This document shows positions 16,240 to 23,261 of a stretch of DNA of 54,917 nt, in pieces. The translations under genes and the position numbers were made by a program. Location: NCBI GenBank assembly GCA_038741495.1, contig JAVYKX010000001.1:1-54917 (forward strand), read 5' to 3'. The first letter of the stretch is position 1; every line of letters starts with the position of its first letter. The notes under the pieces are model-generated. The model ran no database searches, was not told where the DNA came from, and saw only the letters and a program-made list of their open reading frames with translations. The stretch is from Thermofilum sp. GTDB lineage: Archaea > Thermoproteota > Thermoprotei > Thermofilales > Thermofilaceae.

Positions 16240-16328
16240 GGGCCCGTGGCTCAGCCAGGTAGAGCCGGTGCACCTAAAGCACCCGGCTGATAACCGGGGG
16301 GTCCCGGGTTCAAATCCCGGCGGGCCCA
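16240..16328 (+). tRNA. tRNA-Ile (GAT) with a 15-nt intron
   Basis: The acceptor GGGCCCG/CGGGCCC and anticodon arm CCCGG-CTGATAA-CCGGG give GAT. Fifteen extra bases sit at the D-stem. The bulge-helix-bulge fit (AGGT/ACCT central helix, bulges AG|A and AA|A) puts the intron at 16263-16277, between positions 22 and 23. Because AGC is repeated, a cut after position 25 gives the same mature tRNA. CCA encoded at 16329-16331. Confidence 0.92.
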
Positions 16329-16507
16329 CCATTGATATTTAACGAAATGTGCTCGTTCACTTGCAAGCAGGTTTAGAGCTCATTTAAGTTATCTAACTTC
16401 ACCGTTTCAGCACAGCGACTGAACCAGAGACGACCCGCACCCAGCTGCCACGGTCGGCTTTTCAGCATGGGCTTGAGGCGCTTGCTGCGCTAAGAAGGAG
16501 AGGTTGG

Positions 16508-16687: not shown

Positions 16688-16957
16688 CTAGACGCCTTCG
16701 ATTCTCTTGATATACTCCTCTTCGTCGGTAACCGTGAGCTCTTGTCTTAAGCTCAGCTGTTGCTCGATTTTCCTCTGTCTTCTCACGAGCTTGGTTACGT
16801 ACCCGGCTATCTGGTTTCGAAGAGTTTTTGAGGGTATTTCTGCCACCTGCATTAGAACCTCTTTATTGTGTTCAAAGTCGTCTGTGAATAGGTTCGCGTA
16901 TCTCACGAGCATCTCCCTTGCCGTTCTTTTAACCAGCTTTATTCTTACATTACCCAT
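16688..16957 (-). CDS. rps17e: Ribosomal protein eS17
   Basis: Small-subunit ribosomal protein, 89 residues from ATG at 16957. MGNVRIKLVKRTAREMLVRY, DDFEHNKEV and IPSKTLRNQIAGYVTKLVRR match archaeal eS17. The tail (residues after RRQRKIEQQL) is somewhat longer than in many relatives. An in-frame start at 16975 would add MKSGFS but does not fit the family. It is divergent from the histone gene. Confidence 0.93.
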   Translation of the reverse strand: MGNVRIKLVKRTAREMLVRYANLFTDDFEHNKEVLMQVAEIPSKTLRNQIAGYVTKLVRRQRKIEQQLSLRQELTVTDEEEYIKRIEGV

Positions 16958-17091
16958 GCTGAACCCGCTCTTCACGACAGCCTGATGGTAAATAAGTTTT
17001 CGCGAGGGACGAGCGTCTCTCGAAATACAATTTCTCTTTTGACCACACAGAGAGAGGATAACTTTTTTTATTCCTACTACTAAGTAGCTTG

Positions 17092-17379
17092 ATGACGCAG
17101 AAGCCGTCTTCGAGAAGAAAAGACCATGAAATCCCTCTCGCTCCTTTGGACAGGATACTTCACCAGGCCGGAGCCGAGCGTGTCAGCGAAGAAGCGGCGA
17201 TGGTGCTCAGAGACTTCCTGGAGAAGCTAGCACGAGAAATAGCTAGAGAGTCTGTAGAGGCCTCCAGACACGCCGAGAGGAAGACTGTCACAGAGGAGGA
17301 TGTGAAGTTTGCTATAAGCAGGGTGCAGAGGGTTCTGTGCGCGAACCTCGAGATCGCGGCACTCACCCGTGAGAAGTAG
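17092..17379 (+). CDS. Archaeal histone with N-terminal basic tail
   Basis: DNA-wrapping chromatin protein of 95 residues. The histone fold starts at IPLAPLDRILHQAGAERVS, continues through the long central helix (AAMVLRDFLEKLAREIARES) and ends at KTVTEEDVKFAISRV. Unlike tail-less euryarchaeal histones it has about 14 residues before the fold (MTQKPSSRRKDHE) and about 15 after it. The ATG at 17092 is preferred; TTG at 17089 adds one residue. An A/T element CTTTTTTTATT at 17062-17072 suggests a leaderless transcript. Confidence 0.93.
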   Translation: MTQKPSSRRKDHEIPLAPLDRILHQAGAERVSEEAAMVLRDFLEKLAREIARESVEASRHAERKTVTEEDVKFAISRVQRVLCANLEIAALTREK

Positions 17380-17715: not shown

Positions 17716-19623
17716 GTGGAAAAGTGCGTGATAGCAGCTGCGCTAATAGTTCTGGCGCTCGCCCCGCTACTTGTTAATGCTGAAGCGCTCAAGTCGCCGG
17801 ATTTCTACGCCAGAATCGATGTGCTGGTGACCACAGAGGAAATCGTGGAGATAGATTTCGGAGCCAAAAGCGATGTTCTCCTGGTCAGCGCAACCACCTT
17901 ACCGGGTTTCACCTTGGAGCGTTTCGTGGCGGTTTTCGAGGGCGGTGCGCCAAAAGGGATCGTTCCAGTAGTGTACGATAAGAGGAGTGAAAACATGGGG
18001 GTGCTTGCCTCTCTCGTATCTTACACAGGTGAGATAAAACTATCCTCAAATGGGTACAACGGCACGTGTAAAGTCAGGTTAATCACTGTTCAGAGGAAAA
18101 CGAGCTGGCAGGCTATCAGGGGGGACATCACGCTGGATACTTCGGAGTACAGGGGTGCAGGCTTCGATAACGTGGTGGTGAGAGTAACGATCGATAACTA
18201 TGCTCCCTACATAGTGAAAGATGTTCTCGACCAGCAGGGCAACTCTCTCTTCAGCGTCGAATTTCAGAAAACTGTGGAGGCTAGCGCGGTGAAATTCGAC
18301 TTAAAGCACGTGGAGCTTAAAGTCTCGAAGCTGGGCTTCGGGAAGTACACGGTGAAGCTTCAGAGAAACGAGGCTTTCGCGCTGCCCGGCGCGATGCTGG
18401 TTATCGAGGACTCCTATACCGAGTACACAGTGGCGCCTAAGTCCACGAAGGCTTTAACGCTTAAGAACAAGCTCGACTGGAAGCCTCTCGGCTGGATCAT
18501 TGTCGCTTACAGCGTTGCGCCAGGACCTATGAGAGAGCCTCAGGTAAAGATTGAAGGAGATATCGTAGACCTTGCTGCGGAGAGAAGAGATCAGATAGAC
18601 GTTAGAGGAGCCTCGTTGCTGATCCCACCTTTCCTGCTCCACTACTGGATAGAAGCTTACACGGTTTACGGCGCTACCGTGAAGATCACGAACTTAGGGC
18701 GGGACGATATCCGAATAATAGCTGTGCCCGTTTACTACCGCGAGGTGGGAGTGTGGACTCCAAGGGGCTTAGAGGTTTCAGTGAGCTCTAGGGATCTCGG
18801 CGACGCATACGCAGCGTTTATAGTCGTCCAGGTACCAAGTCTCGCGAGAATTACAAGCCTTACGCTTCCAAGCGGTCAAGTGTTGGAGAGGCTAGGGAAC
18901 TACACTTCGGGGTGGGGCAGCGAGTGGCGGAGCATAGTGGTCGAGGAGCACGAGGCTGCGGTTCAGGTGAAGAATGGGGCGCAAGTCGAGGAGGGAACCT
19001 ACTTCTTCAGCATCGAGTGGCCGACTCTGCTTGTGAAGCCCGTTGACTCCAAGAGAAGACCCGTCATCGGCGCTGAAGTCGTCGTGGAAGGACCCGTTAA
19101 GATAACCGCTGTGAGCGAGGCTGATGGAGCCGCTAGGGTTAAGCCCTACGCTCCAGGGGTTTACACGGTAGCTATTAACTACAGGGGCGCGAAAGTAGGC
19201 GAAGCCACGCTCGCTACGCTCACCGGCTCCGAGCTGCTCATACCGTGCTCGCTCTACGACCTACAGGTGAACGTCAAGACCGCGCTGAGCTCTCCCGTTT
19301 CCGGCGCAGTCGTATCCGTAGAGAGTCAGGGAGGCTTTAAGCAGGAGCTGGAGACCGACGACTCCGGAAAGGTGGTCTTCACTCAGCTTCCGGGCGGGAC
19401 CTACACCGTAAGGGCAGAGTACAAGGGTGTTTCAGCCCAGCAAACGGTGAACTTAAATGCCGACGCGTCGGTGGACTTGAACCTCTGGATACTCTTCGAG
19501 CTCCCGCTGATAGGCCCGGTGACTGCCGCTACAGCAGCTGCTGCTGGAGCTGTTACAGCAGTGGTGGCTGGAGCGGCCTTCTCTAGAAGGCGAAGGGAGG
19601 TTGCCGAGATCGACATCGGCTGA
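17716..19623 (+). CDS. Secreted, membrane-anchored surface protein with Ig-like repeats
   Basis: From GTG at 17716, seven bases after AGGTGAG, the protein has 635 residues. It begins with a signal peptide (CVIAAALIVLALAPLLVNAEA) that signal peptidase could cut, followed by a large beta-rich extracellular part. Two carboxypeptidase-regulatory-like domains lie near the end (RRPVIGAEVVVEGPVKITAV and SSPVSGAVVSVESQGGFKQE, each closing with GxYTVxxxYxG). A single C-terminal membrane segment (TAATAAAAGAVTAVVAGAA) is followed by arginines. No enzyme motif is seen. A role in the envelope, with the protease gene 17 bases downstream, is inferred. Confidence 0.75.
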   Translation: MEKCVIAAALIVLALAPLLVNAEALKSPDFYARIDVLVTTEEIVEIDFGAKSDVLLVSATTLPGFTLERFVAVFEGGAPKGIVPVVYDKRSENMGVLASLVSYTGEIKLSSNGYNGTCKVRLITVQRKTSWQAIRGDITLDTSEYRGAGFDNVVVRVTIDNYAPYIVKDVLDQQGNSLFSVEFQKTVEASAVKFDLKHVELKVSKLGFGKYTVKLQRNEAFALPGAMLVIEDSYTEYTVAPKSTKALTLKNKLDWKPLGWIIVAYSVAPGPMREPQVKIEGDIVDLAAERRDQIDVRGASLLIPPFLLHYWIEAYTVYGATVKITNLGRDDIRIIAVPVYYREVGVWTPRGLEVSVSSRDLGDAYAAFIVVQVPSLARITSLTLPSGQVLERLGNYTSGWGSEWRSIVVEEHEAAVQVKNGAQVEEGTYFFSIEWPTLLVKPVDSKRRPVIGAEVVVEGPVKITAVSEADGAARVKPYAPGVYTVAINYRGAKVGEATLATLTGSELLIPCSLYDLQVNVKTALSSPVSGAVVSVESQGGFKQELETDDSGKVVFTQLPGGTYTVRAEYKGVSAQQTVNLNADASVDLNLWILFELPLIGPVTAATAAAAGAVTAVVAGAAFSRRRREVAEIDIG

Positions 19624-19640
19624 AAGCGGAGCTGCATAGT

Positions 19641-21011
19641 ATGTACGTAAAGAGCTTGTACTTACCTTTGCTCTGTTTTTCCCGCTCGCGCTCTAAACCT
19701 GAGGATGTGCTTCTTGCTCTTCAGAGGAAGGGTCTTCTCTCATTCTCTCTGAGAAGCCGTTGGGCGGGCTGCGAGACCTGGCGTGCCAGGACGCACTTCG
19801 GAGATGTTCTCATCACGCTTAACAATGAAGAGAAGCTTATAGTGGAGTCGGAGGAGAAGAAAGCTCTCGATTTTTTCCTAAAATCGTTTTTTCTAGAGGT
19901 TTCTGCCCTCTGTAGAGCGGAACCAGAGCTGGTGATAGTATTCCTAGGTGATCAACTCCTACCGGTTGGAGGAAGCAGGCTGGCGGCTTTTCTTTCTCGA
20001 GGAGCTCTTGGTGTGCTTGTTTTCGCGGCCGTGGTCACATGCCTCGAAGCTCCCCTCTCAGCCCTTGGCATACCTTTCCTGCTCTCGACCGCTCTCGCCT
20101 TCTCGATTTCTCTGCCCATTGCGCTGCTTCTGGGACCGGCTGTGGCCTTACGAGCGTTACCTAGGTGGAGGATGCCGCACGGCCAGCCCCTGAGGATAAT
20201 TGTGGCGAAGCTGGTATCGCTAGATAGTGATGTCGAGCTCGCCGCCTCTTTCGCAAAGCTGAGTCTTGCCAAAAAACCTGGAGAGCTAACGCCCGATGCT
20301 GTGATCTCCGAGCTTGAGAGCTGGGGGGTACCGGTCAGGGGGGTTTCCGTTCTCGAGTTTCCCAGCCCTGCTGCACGCTTCTGCAACGGTGGCGAGTGCC
20401 CCGAGTTTTTCCTAACAACTTCCCGAAGGGTGCTAGCAGTCAGCTACAGCGCCCTAGGCGGATCAAAGGTGGTGCTCGGGGTAGATGCGCTTATCGACCT
20501 CGACCAGGATGAGGTGCATGCCGTAGTGGCGCACGAGCTGAGCCACATTAAGCACGGTGATTCTGCTACTCTTACCCTTGTGGCATCGCTTGTAGGGCTC
20601 CTCCTGCTAGCAGGCCTAGAGGTCTTGCTGCTTAACATACCGGCTCTTATAGCCGTTTTTCTTGCCGGAGTTTATGCGGTCACGCTGCTGTGGAGAGCTC
20701 TAGAACTCCGGGCGGACCTGGAGGCTGCCCTCAAGGCGGGGCGGGCGCCCCTGAGGAGAGCGTTAATTAAACTGGAATACCCTTCTCTAGCTAAGAGCTC
20801 CTCTCCTCATAGAAGAATTCTAAGTGTTTTCCTACCTACTGCGCACCCACCGGTGTGGCTTAGGCTCGCCGCGCTCGAGAAAGCCTGTCTTCAGAAGAAC
20901 CTCTTTAGGGAGGCTTTGAAGATCATAGCTAGCTCGCTTTTCCTTGCGGTAGAGGCGCACGAGAGCTTGCCTAATCCGCCTAAGCGGGGTCTGCCGCTTT
21001 GCTGCAGCTGA
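19641..21011 (+). CDS. Membrane M48-family zinc metalloprotease, HtpX-like
   Basis: A 456-residue protein with hydrophobic segments at about residues 113-170 and 315-345, and the zinc motif HELSHIKH (His298, Glu299, His302). The third ligand glutamate is probably in ELRADLEAAL. This is the M48 pattern (HtpX/Ste24), with a long N-terminal part not typical of HtpX. It follows the surface protein with a 17-base gap and is probably in one operon. A function in envelope protein processing or quality control is inferred. Confidence 0.82.
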   Translation: MYVKSLYLPLLCFSRSRSKPEDVLLALQRKGLLSFSLRSRWAGCETWRARTHFGDVLITLNNEEKLIVESEEKKALDFFLKSFFLEVSALCRAEPELVIVFLGDQLLPVGGSRLAAFLSRGALGVLVFAAVVTCLEAPLSALGIPFLLSTALAFSISLPIALLLGPAVALRALPRWRMPHGQPLRIIVAKLVSLDSDVELAASFAKLSLAKKPGELTPDAVISELESWGVPVRGVSVLEFPSPAARFCNGGECPEFFLTTSRRVLAVSYSALGGSKVVLGVDALIDLDQDEVHAVVAHELSHIKHGDSATLTLVASLVGLLLLAGLEVLLLNIPALIAVFLAGVYAVTLLWRALELRADLEAALKAGRAPLRRALIKLEYPSLAKSSSPHRRILSVFLPTAHPPVWLRLAALEKACLQKNLFREALKIIASSLFLAVEAHESLPNPPKRGLPLCCS

Positions 21012-21117
21012 GCAGAGAAGTTAAGCAGTATTACAATCGTAACTGTTTCTTAATCATCTTCTCAAGCCTCGGAACCGCTTTACTACAACCTCCCCACTTA
21101 GAGAGAGCGGGTGGCGG

Positions 21118-21462
21118 ATGAGCGTCCGAGCTAATCTGCTGAAAGCTTTAGGAATTCTGGAGGATTTAGCGCTGAACGGCGGCTTGGAGGAGAAGCACAG
21201 AAAGCTGCTCCTCCAGGTGATTAAGCTCATCTCCGAGGTGCAAGACGAAGTTGTCAGCGCGAAAAGCAAGGTGCGCGACCTCACGTACACTCTCCGTGAG
21301 TTGAGCGAGCTCCTCGGCCTCGAGGTGAACCTTACGAATCCCAAGCTGGCTGTCGAGGACGATATCCTACAAGCTATTGAAAACAGCTCTATGGCTGAGC
21401 TGGAGCTGGAGGACGAGAGGGTAGTCGTCAAAAAGCTTATTTCAGCTCGAGCTGAGGCATAA
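21118..21462 (+). CDS. Small coiled-coil protein, unknown
   Basis: A 114-residue protein that is nearly all helix, with heptad-like spacing in LLLQVIKLISEVQDEVVSAK and VRDLTYTLRELSELLGLEV. No signal peptide, no membrane segment, no cysteine. It is not recognised. It lies on the same strand between the M48 protease gene and the zinc-ribbon gene, 18 bases before the latter, and may be part of a complex with them. Confidence 0.6.
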   Translation: MSVRANLLKALGILEDLALNGGLEEKHRKLLLQVIKLISEVQDEVVSAKSKVRDLTYTLRELSELLGLEVNLTNPKLAVEDDILQAIENSSMAELELEDERVVVKKLISARAEA

Positions 21463-21480
21463 GGGAGGTTGTTGTCCTGA

Positions 21481-22164
21481 ATGCCGGGTGTGCCAGGGTT
21501 AAACTCTTTAAAACGCTCCAGAGATCCGGAGCACACACCACCTCGACCGCCTAGGGATGAAAAATTTGAAAAGCTTCTCGGGAAGGCGAGAGAGAAAGCT
21601 CTGCAATGGTCCCTCGCGACAGCTGTGCTAACTACAGCACCCGCGATGGTACTGCTCATCGCCGTGAAGACCGGCGCAGTGGCCCTGGAGCCGGGAGACT
21701 TGATCCTTCTCGGGATTATCCCTGCCCTGGCGGTTTTCGCATTTCTATCCATGTACACGCTGCTGAACATCTCTCTACCCTCTCTCCTAGAAGCCTACTC
21801 ATTCAAGATCTACTCCCGTCTTGCTGAAGGAAGCGCTGCGCCGCAGCAAGCAGCGCTGCAGGCTCCTGCTCAGCGCCCACCCGTTCAGCGCTTGCCCAGC
21901 CCAGTGATTGCACCAGCTCCCGCTGTCGCACCGGCTCCCGCTCGCGCGCAGCCTTCGGGCCAGGCGAAAGCCGTAAAGCCTACGCCTATTACCCGCGAGG
22001 AGGGCGTCTTCGCTGCGCCGTCAACGCAACCCACGGCCACGCCGCATCCCGCTGCCTTCTCTCCGGCTTCTCTTTCTTCTCCAAGGTGCCCCAACTGCGG
22101 AAGGGAGCTACCCTACGGGGATTTACACCTCATATGCCCATTCTGCGGGGCGAGATTAAAGTAG
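21481..22164 (+). CDS. Membrane protein with C-terminal zinc ribbon
   Basis: A 227-residue protein with a charged N-terminus, two membrane segments (ATAVLTTAPAMVLLIAVKTG and ILLGIIPALAVFAFLSMYTL), a long Pro/Ala-rich linker (about residues 118-195) and a C-terminal zinc ribbon, CPNCGRELPYGDLHLICPFC. The linker would hold the ribbon away from the membrane in the cytoplasm. No known family is named. It appears to be the last gene of the plus-strand envelope group. Confidence 0.65.
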   Translation: MPGVPGLNSLKRSRDPEHTPPRPPRDEKFEKLLGKAREKALQWSLATAVLTTAPAMVLLIAVKTGAVALEPGDLILLGIIPALAVFAFLSMYTLLNISLPSLLEAYSFKIYSRLAEGSAAPQQAALQAPAQRPPVQRLPSPVIAPAPAVAPAPARAQPSGQAKAVKPTPITREEGVFAAPSTQPTATPHPAAFSPASLSSPRCPNCGRELPYGDLHLICPFCGARLK

Positions 22165-22193
22165 CGAAAAGCGTTTTCGGCTACTTCTCTACT

Positions 22194-23261
22194 CTAGCTC
22201 CGCGCCGGGGATAGCCTCACCAGGAGAAGTAGCGCTAGTGCCCCCGATGCGAGTAGCACCGCTCTAGTGAGAGAGCTATCTTGCAGCTCACTTACGTCTA
22301 TTCGCAGCCACACCTGGGTTGCCCCTTCTACACCGTACACGATAAGATAGTCGTTTGGGTTGCTCTCTCTTATCCTGTATAGGACGATAATGTTATCGAG
22401 CACGTTAAGGCTCGAGCCGGATATCTTGTCTCTAGCAGATTCACCGGCACTCGCTGTCAGATCAACGGGTACGATCCCGCTCGAGAAATTCACGACGGAG
22501 AATATGTGAGGGTGGGCGCCAACCAGGGAGTATCTTAAACCTTGAGAACTAAGCTCCTGGCTTGCGCTAGGGTCAACTATGTAGGCGTACACGAGGGCAG
22601 CGTCGAGGCCTTGAATCTTTAGAAGCGCTGCGGCGAAAGCATGTACATCTCCGCAGGGACCCGTAAGGTTTTCGAGGAAAGATGAGGGGCAGCGGACACC
22701 CCCTACCGTGCTCTCTGAGTACTTGAACCTTTCTAGAATCCACTGAATCACGCTCAGCAAGTAGTGTGCCGGTGTTTCAGCTCGGCTTCTCAGCTCCCAC
22801 GAGATCCTCTCAACGTCCTCGAACTTCACCCTGCTAGAGTTGCATCTCCAAAACGAGTTTCGGGGCAGCCTTCCGCGCGCCTCCTCCCACGAAGCTCCAG
22901 CAGGCAGCTCGAACTTTGCTCTAAATGGAGGGGATAGGGTTCTCACCTTTTGCACTAACGTCAGGTTGAGGGACCCACTGAAAGATAGAGGTCCAGGATC
23001 AGCGTACTCGTTTCCTTCGGGATCAACCATCACCGAGTAGCTCGCCGGAACCCCGTTCACGTAGAGTTCGGCGGTCACCCTTTCCTGTACCCCCTCGAGG
23101 GTCGGGACTAGTATCATGTGCTTCGAGTATACGCTGCTGTCTACAACACCGCTACCGTAAGCGATGTACTGAATTCTGATCACGAAAGTCCTGCTACTGA
23201 GAGGCGCCATCAACCAGAGAGCCAGTGCTAGCAGCGCTAGGCTACGTCCACGCCAGCTCAT
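22194..23261 (-). CDS. Secreted transglutaminase-like protein, membrane-anchored
   Basis: A 355-residue protein with an N-terminal signal segment (LALLALALWLMAPLSS) and a C-terminal membrane helix (AVLLASGALALLLLVRL). The transglutaminase-like core has the cysteine in TGPCGDVHAFAAALLK (Cys203), the histidine in GAHPHIFSVV and an aspartate in IVPVDLTAS, the usual Cys-His-Asp triad. Archaeal members may be peptidases or cross-linking enzymes on the cell surface. It converges on the zinc-ribbon gene and diverges from atpA. Confidence 0.78.
   Translation of the reverse strand: MSWRGRSLALLALALWLMAPLSSRTFVIRIQYIAYGSGVVDSSVYSKHMILVPTLEGVQERVTAELYVNGVPASYSVMVDPEGNEYADPGPLSFSGSLNLTLVQKVRTLSPPFRAKFELPAGASWEEARGRLPRNSFWRCNSSRVKFEDVERISWELRSRAETPAHYLLSVIQWILERFKYSESTVGGVRCPSSFLENLTGPCGDVHAFAAALLKIQGLDAALVYAYIVDPSASQELSSQGLRYSLVGAHPHIFSVVNFSSGIVPVDLTASAGESARDKISGSSLNVLDNIIVLYRIRESNPNDYLIVYGVEGATQVWLRIDVSELQDSSLTRAVLLASGALALLLLVRLSPARS

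Follow-up and report, generated by a model that had tools for sequence, protein, structure and literature searches.

The locus is a block of five open reading frames, hereafter labelled A–E, at positions 17716-23261 of the window, the 54,917-nucleotide stretch of a Thermofilum genome (G000, 1.6 Mb and about 96% complete) on which this analysis is based. All five lie where a preliminary description of this DNA had placed them, and the active sites of the two enzymes, B and E, are intact (Table 1). Genes A to D are separated by gaps of 17 bases (A-B), 106 bases (B-C) and 18 bases (C-D), and the shortness of the first and the last suggests that A is co-transcribed with B, and C with D. Genes D and E converge, with stop codons 29 bases apart. 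Just upstream of A, we read an archaeal histone-like gene (17089-17379) and a divergent gene for an S17e-like ribosomal protein (16688-16975), a pair whose linkage close to the cluster recurs elsewhere in the genus. ARAGORN additionally calls a tRNA-Pyl with anticodon CTA upstream of the cluster (92 bases, 16240-16331), which in this lineage we take to be, more likely, a misread intron-containing tRNA.

Table 1. Features of the five-gene block, with positions counted in the window.
Feature	Position	Strand	Length	Basis
A, surface protein	17716-19623	+	635 aa	ORF
A, CarboxypepD_reg/SpaA-type module, residues 517-589	19264-19482	+		PF13620
A, transmembrane helix, residues 600-622	19513-19581	+		hydropathy, homologues
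B, HtpX-like M48 membrane metalloprotease	19641-21011	+	456 aa	PF01435
B, HELSH zinc-binding/catalytic motif (H298, E299, H302)	20532-20546	+		invariant in 21/21 homologues
B, third zinc ligand E355 (E-L-R-A-D)	20703-20705	+		invariant in 21/21 homologues
C, soluble coiled-coil protein	21118-21462	+	114 aa	ORF
D, two transmembrane helices, Pro/Ala-rich linker and C-terminal zinc ribbon	21481-22164	+	227 aa	
D, zinc ribbon CPNCGRELPYGDLHLICPFCG, residues 203-223	22087-22149	+		17/17 homologues
E, transglutaminase-like, convergent with D	22194-23261	-	355 aa	PF01841, AlphaFold
E, catalytic Cys203	22653-22655	-		invariant in 20/20 homologues
E, catalytic His252	22506-22508	-		invariant in 20/20 homologues
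E, catalytic Asp267	22461-22463	-		invariant in 20/20 homologues

Protein A has an all-beta ectodomain that ends in two transthyretin/CnaB-type modules, followed by an Ala/Gly-rich transmembrane helix and a short Arg-rich tail. It was originally described as a signal-peptide protein with Ig-like repeats and a membrane anchor. Hydropathy bears out the signal peptide and the C-terminal helix, and the Ig-like character has family support in the two C-terminal domains only, with A matching CarboxypepD_reg (PF13620, 4.4e-16, 59.4 bits against a curated cut-off of 32.3) and SpaA (PF17802, 1.5e-6, 28.7 bits against 23.1). Outside these modules the protein is all-beta and has no Pfam match. The AlphaFold model, made with 40 homologues, has a mean pLDDT of 88. 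A search of the PDB by sequence gives no match, and Foldseek against the PDB returns generic Ig/CnaB/macroglobulin-like matches with low TM-scores and no solved relative of the whole protein. Matches to the NOMO and EMC7 families fall below the cut-off and were treated as generic.

In its transthyretin/CnaB-like modules and single C-terminal anchor, A resembles the CnaB/SpaA surface proteins and pilins of Gram-positive bacteria and the S-layer proteins SlaA/SlaB, but TM-scores normalised to A stay below 0.2, and the Foldseek match to SlaA/SlaB, with TM-scores of just 0.14-0.18, gives no overall structural agreement. A further differs in having no LPxTG motif, no adjoining sortase and unrelated N-terminal two thirds. 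Across its homologues, a G-x-P-x-[TS]-T-x-E junction is conserved before the transmembrane helix and an Arg cluster behind it, an arrangement reminiscent of archaeosortase/PGF-CTERM systems. However, the C-terminal 62 residues of about 40 homologues, read directly, hold neither an LPxTG nor a PGF-CTERM motif, and no archaeosortase is recognised in the block. We considered this junction, helix and Arg cluster as a sorting signal and rejected the idea, since similar junctions occur in other Ig-type proteins of these genomes and a helix N-cap adequately explains the T/S-T-x-E motif. Several more surface proteins of the Ig/transthyretin type, 226 to 1718 aa long, are encoded in the window's own genome (L194 6775-8646, L195 2396-7552, L196 7449-8129); they share the C-terminal modules of A and a similar transmembrane junction.

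Protein B matches Peptidase_M48 (PF01435) at 6.5e-13, with 49.3 bits against a curated cut-off of 20.3, and the assignment as a membrane M48 protease with an intact HExxH holds: HELSH and the third Glu are present in all 21 homologues. As in HtpX, pairs of transmembrane helices, seen by hydropathy, precede and follow the active site, and an NAxxxG-type motif is found in most homologues. B departs from HtpX in an extra N-terminal domain of ~110 aa, also present in most homologues, in scores below every NCBIfam HtpX equivalog cut-off (at best 33.8 bits against 245) and in its fixed neighbourhood of A, C and D. In M48 proteases of the HtpX type the catalytic domain faces the cytoplasm, and these enzymes are implicated in the degradation of misfolded envelope proteins and in membrane protein quality control, with few targets known for archaeal membrane proteases (PMC9263693). 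By analogy, the catalytic domain of B should face the cytosol; for B and D alike, we infer sidedness from homology and charge.

B is not specific to the cluster. A phylum-wide search at E <= 1e-40 finds proteins with its N-terminal domain in 92 of 348 genomes, and beyond the cluster lineage B adjoins unrelated genes, the 20 loci read having no A, C or D alongside and a single weak E-type match (L221). This breadth, together with the finding that neither G000 nor G003 has an M48 gene other than B at E <= 1e-15, raises the alternative that B is a general HtpX-type stress protease, with A as one client among many and C, D and E acting elsewhere. The five other genomes of the genus, which have a second, mostly HtpX-sized M48 gene, still keep B beside A, and its extra domain and low equivalog scores also set B apart from a general HtpX, so we regard this alternative as improbable.

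Neither C nor D reaches the cut-off of any Pfam family. C is soluble and, as first described, a small coiled-coil protein; 24 of the 81 class genomes encode a homologue, in most cases immediately after B. A small protein is likewise encoded beside an M48 gene in genomes of Thermoproteaceae-like and Thermocladiaceae-like type; homology to C was considered but not adopted, as HMMER and HHalign find nothing significant and position and size alone agree. At two such loci (L199 7523-9256 and L201 7205-8465, of f13/f9 type), the M48 gene is shorter; a small coiled-coil-like gene comes after it, and a small winged-helix-like gene and helicase-like genes come before it. The two transmembrane helices, Pro/Ala linker and zinc ribbon reported for D are all confirmed. 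Among 17 homologues the linker is variable and the ribbon nearly invariant, with C203, C206, C219, C222 and an LP-G--H core unchanged in every one. Five K/R residues precede the first transmembrane helix, a charge pattern that fits a topology with both ends of D in the cytosol.

Protein E runs from an N-terminal signal helix through a beta domain and a transglutaminase core to a C-terminal transmembrane helix, and matches Transglut_core (PF01841) at 2.5e-7, with 31.4 bits against a curated cut-off of 23. Its earlier reading as a secreted transglutaminase-like protein with Cys-His-Asp stands as regards the fold and the triad, which is kept in 20 of 20 homologues. As regards secretion it needs amending, because the C-terminal helix at about 329-353 makes a surface-anchored protein the better fit. 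The AlphaFold model (pLDDT 91, pTM 0.85) has as its nearest solved structure 3isr, which is a putative cysteine protease (E 2.5e-13), followed by TgpA (4e-5) and then by animal transglutaminases; by sequence, the PDB yields chance matches only. In fold, E thus lies closer to these two than to a proven cross-linker and may be a peptidase, although fold is no test of chemistry. TgpA is among the nearest folds, but E has one N-terminal and one C-terminal helix in place of the multi-helix N-terminal membrane region of TgpA and of MoxR-DUF58-transglutaminase systems.

Surface transglutaminase-family peptidases of some euryarchaea are linked to type IV pili, in a role not yet known (PMC4858521), and E is like them in its Transglut_core domain, its Cys-His-Asp triad and its predicted position outside the membrane. 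Among the genes of the block, no pilin, pilus ATPase, TadC, MoxR or DUF58 gene is recognised, and the adjoining genes that were read likewise include no pilin, ATPase or TadC. The E family is multi-copy, with four transglutaminase-like matches in G000. A longer relative of E (about 690-750 aa) is encoded elsewhere in members of the family (G012:C6:46820, G011:C68:20957, G009:C9:39849, G016:C44:56974), including members that have no E.

Each protein was searched in 81 genomes of the class, and 40 loci were fetched and mapped; the searches for B, C and E were repeated with profiles. The preliminary description had staked its proposal on the genes staying together in relatives, and they do: the order A-B-C-D-E is intact, not scattered, in 7 of 7 genomes of the genus. 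The grouping is non-random, with homologues of all five genes adjoining one another in every other genome of the genus. The flanks vary within the genus while the block stays. E has the V-ATPase A gene as its neighbour in G000, G002, G003, G004, G008 and G013, and in G001, G005 and G006 the same block has different surroundings, with the V-ATPase A gene not beside E. In the rest of the family, all five genes are found in G011, are split only at contig ends in G007, G008 and G013, and are reduced to A-B-C-D, with no full-length E, in G009, G010, G012, G014, G015 and G016.

In other families of the order, three genomes (G017, on two contigs, G019 and G023) have the five genes plus an inserted D-aminoacyl-tRNA deacylase-like gene. 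G020 has A-B-D with E at a separate place, and G025 and G026 have A-B, the B of G025 being cut by a contig end. Two genes separate A from B in G021, and the two lie apart in G022 and G024. Beyond the order, A-B-C is found in G027, G033 and G036, with B and C separated by a radical SAM gene in two of the three, and A-B in G030. The inserted deacylase-like gene, which by its sequence resembles DTD2, lies between C and D-E in families f2/f4 (L139 402-1247, L141 12756-13571, L147 6779-7603). The radical SAM-like protein, found between B and C in f8, is 522-537 aa long, and its N-terminus reads as B12-binding-like (L153 7219-8787, L154 3938-5551).

Overall, where a genome encodes both A and B, A lies immediately upstream of B in 26 of 29 cases, drawn from several families (counted by hand over genomes in which A and a B orthologue were located, B fragments included). 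C comes next after B in almost all genomes that have it, D follows C, and D and E are convergent neighbours in 14 genomes. A-B-C-D-E is thus a genuine conserved cluster of which E is an optional part, and a joint role of the five genes at the cell envelope is very probable. Archaeal gene order can last for long periods, and B adjoins other genes in other classes, which would suit a small genome that rearranges slowly and has just kept five genes of no shared function side by side. Since the flanks differ between members of one genus around an unchanged block, and the core order is kept across several families despite the deacylase-like and radical SAM insertions, we find this explanation very improbable.

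The optional place of E bears on the first interpretation of the locus, a pathway of maturation or cross-linking at the surface, with E and B processing or cross-linking A. E carries a full Cys-His-Asp triad, is predicted to lie outside the membrane and neighbours D in 14 genomes, and all-beta A has CnaB/SpaA-like modules comparable to those of cross-linked Gram-positive pilins. The interpretation is nevertheless weakened on several sides. E is the most readily lost member of the cluster: six members of the family retain A-B-C-D without it, and many genomes of the class have A and no full-length E. The nearest solved fold to E is a putative protease, and the sequence of A, as read, shows no sorting motif of LPxTG or PGF type. 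Since the catalytic domain of M48 enzymes is turned to the cytosol (PMC9263693) and E is predicted to lie outside, B and E would be expected to act on different regions of a substrate, which disfavours a single, simple maturation step on A. Maturation or cross-linking of the 635-residue protein thus seems unlikely to us.

The members of the cluster differ in age: B is phylum-wide and older, A is class-wide, and C, D and E are narrower. In a profile search of 397 genomes of the phylum, full-length A is confined to the window's class, where it occurs in nearly all genomes, one copy in each, including the Thermoproteaceae-like (f9) and Thermocladiaceae-like (f13) families; class members without it include f12 and G029. 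The idea that A is a general crenarchaeal protein was rejected, as beyond the class its C-terminal modules alone match (best partial match G085, 5.9e-36). In f9 and f13, A is present and B is not adjacent, and in three of the four loci read A lies near pyruvate or indolepyruvate oxidoreductase genes. B is an old paralogue that probably came to lie next to A in an ancestor shared by Thermofilales and families f8/f11, where C and D would also have been added.

This distribution of A, full-length and single-copy in nearly all of the class and absent beyond it, would suit a structural component of the envelope, such as an S-layer anchor or stalk or a shape factor, as would its large, single-pass, all-beta ectodomain. 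B, C, D and E would then be assembly or housekeeping neighbours, with no dedicated protease system. A has no global match to known S-layer proteins, however (the SlaA/SlaB scores given above), and at about 635 aa it is far from the S-layer candidate of Thermoproteus tenax, a 2,663-aa protein (PMC3189178). A purely structural A also leaves the conserved protease and adaptors unexplained, and we hold this reading to be rather doubtful.

The reading we favour, tentatively, is that A-B-C-D form a module for surveillance and turnover of envelope proteins in Thermofilales, to which E would be an optional enzyme on the outside. On the outside, A, as a single-pass surface protein, would serve as the main client, as a sensor or as a scaffold. 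B would cut membrane clients, or clients bound to A, from the cytosolic side. C may be a cytosolic partner of B, and D a tethered adaptor that, with its transmembrane hairpin and a ribbon on a flexible arm, could help bring in or gate substrates. Where present, E would be a cysteine peptidase of transglutaminase fold, trimming envelope proteins on the outer side. The sidedness, the physical interactions, the choice of client and the peptidase chemistry of E are all putative in this surveillance scheme. Three findings count against it. B stands beside unrelated genes outside the cluster lineage, so B is not bound to A throughout its range; A persists in the Thermoproteaceae-like and Thermocladiaceae-like genomes with no adjacent B; and, given that no M48 gene besides B appears in G000 at E <= 1e-15, B could simply be the general HtpX of this genome.

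The combination had been described as an unfamiliar one, and literature searches found no description of it, although a supplement listing Pyrobaculum-Thermofilum signature proteins may already include A (PMC1852104). What is new is the conserved arrangement, made mostly of known kinds of parts around a class-specific surface protein: the domains of A, B and E and the zinc-ribbon kind of D are known, and C belongs to no known family. In a wider proposal, which we consider very unlikely, A would stand at the centre of a so far undescribed envelope machine in the class comprising Thermofilales and Thermoproteales, run in Thermofilales by a two-sided protease set, with the M48 enzyme and the coiled-coil and zinc-ribbon adaptors inside and the transglutaminase-fold enzyme outside. 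Thermoproteales have no Cdv genes, and their division machinery is unidentified (PMC5840170). This makes A worth testing, although nothing here ties A to division. A class-wide, single-copy A with a fixed M48 protease and adaptors provides a named candidate substrate and candidate cofactors for an archaeal HtpX-like protease, and the question of what such proteases target becomes directly testable in cultured Thermofilum.
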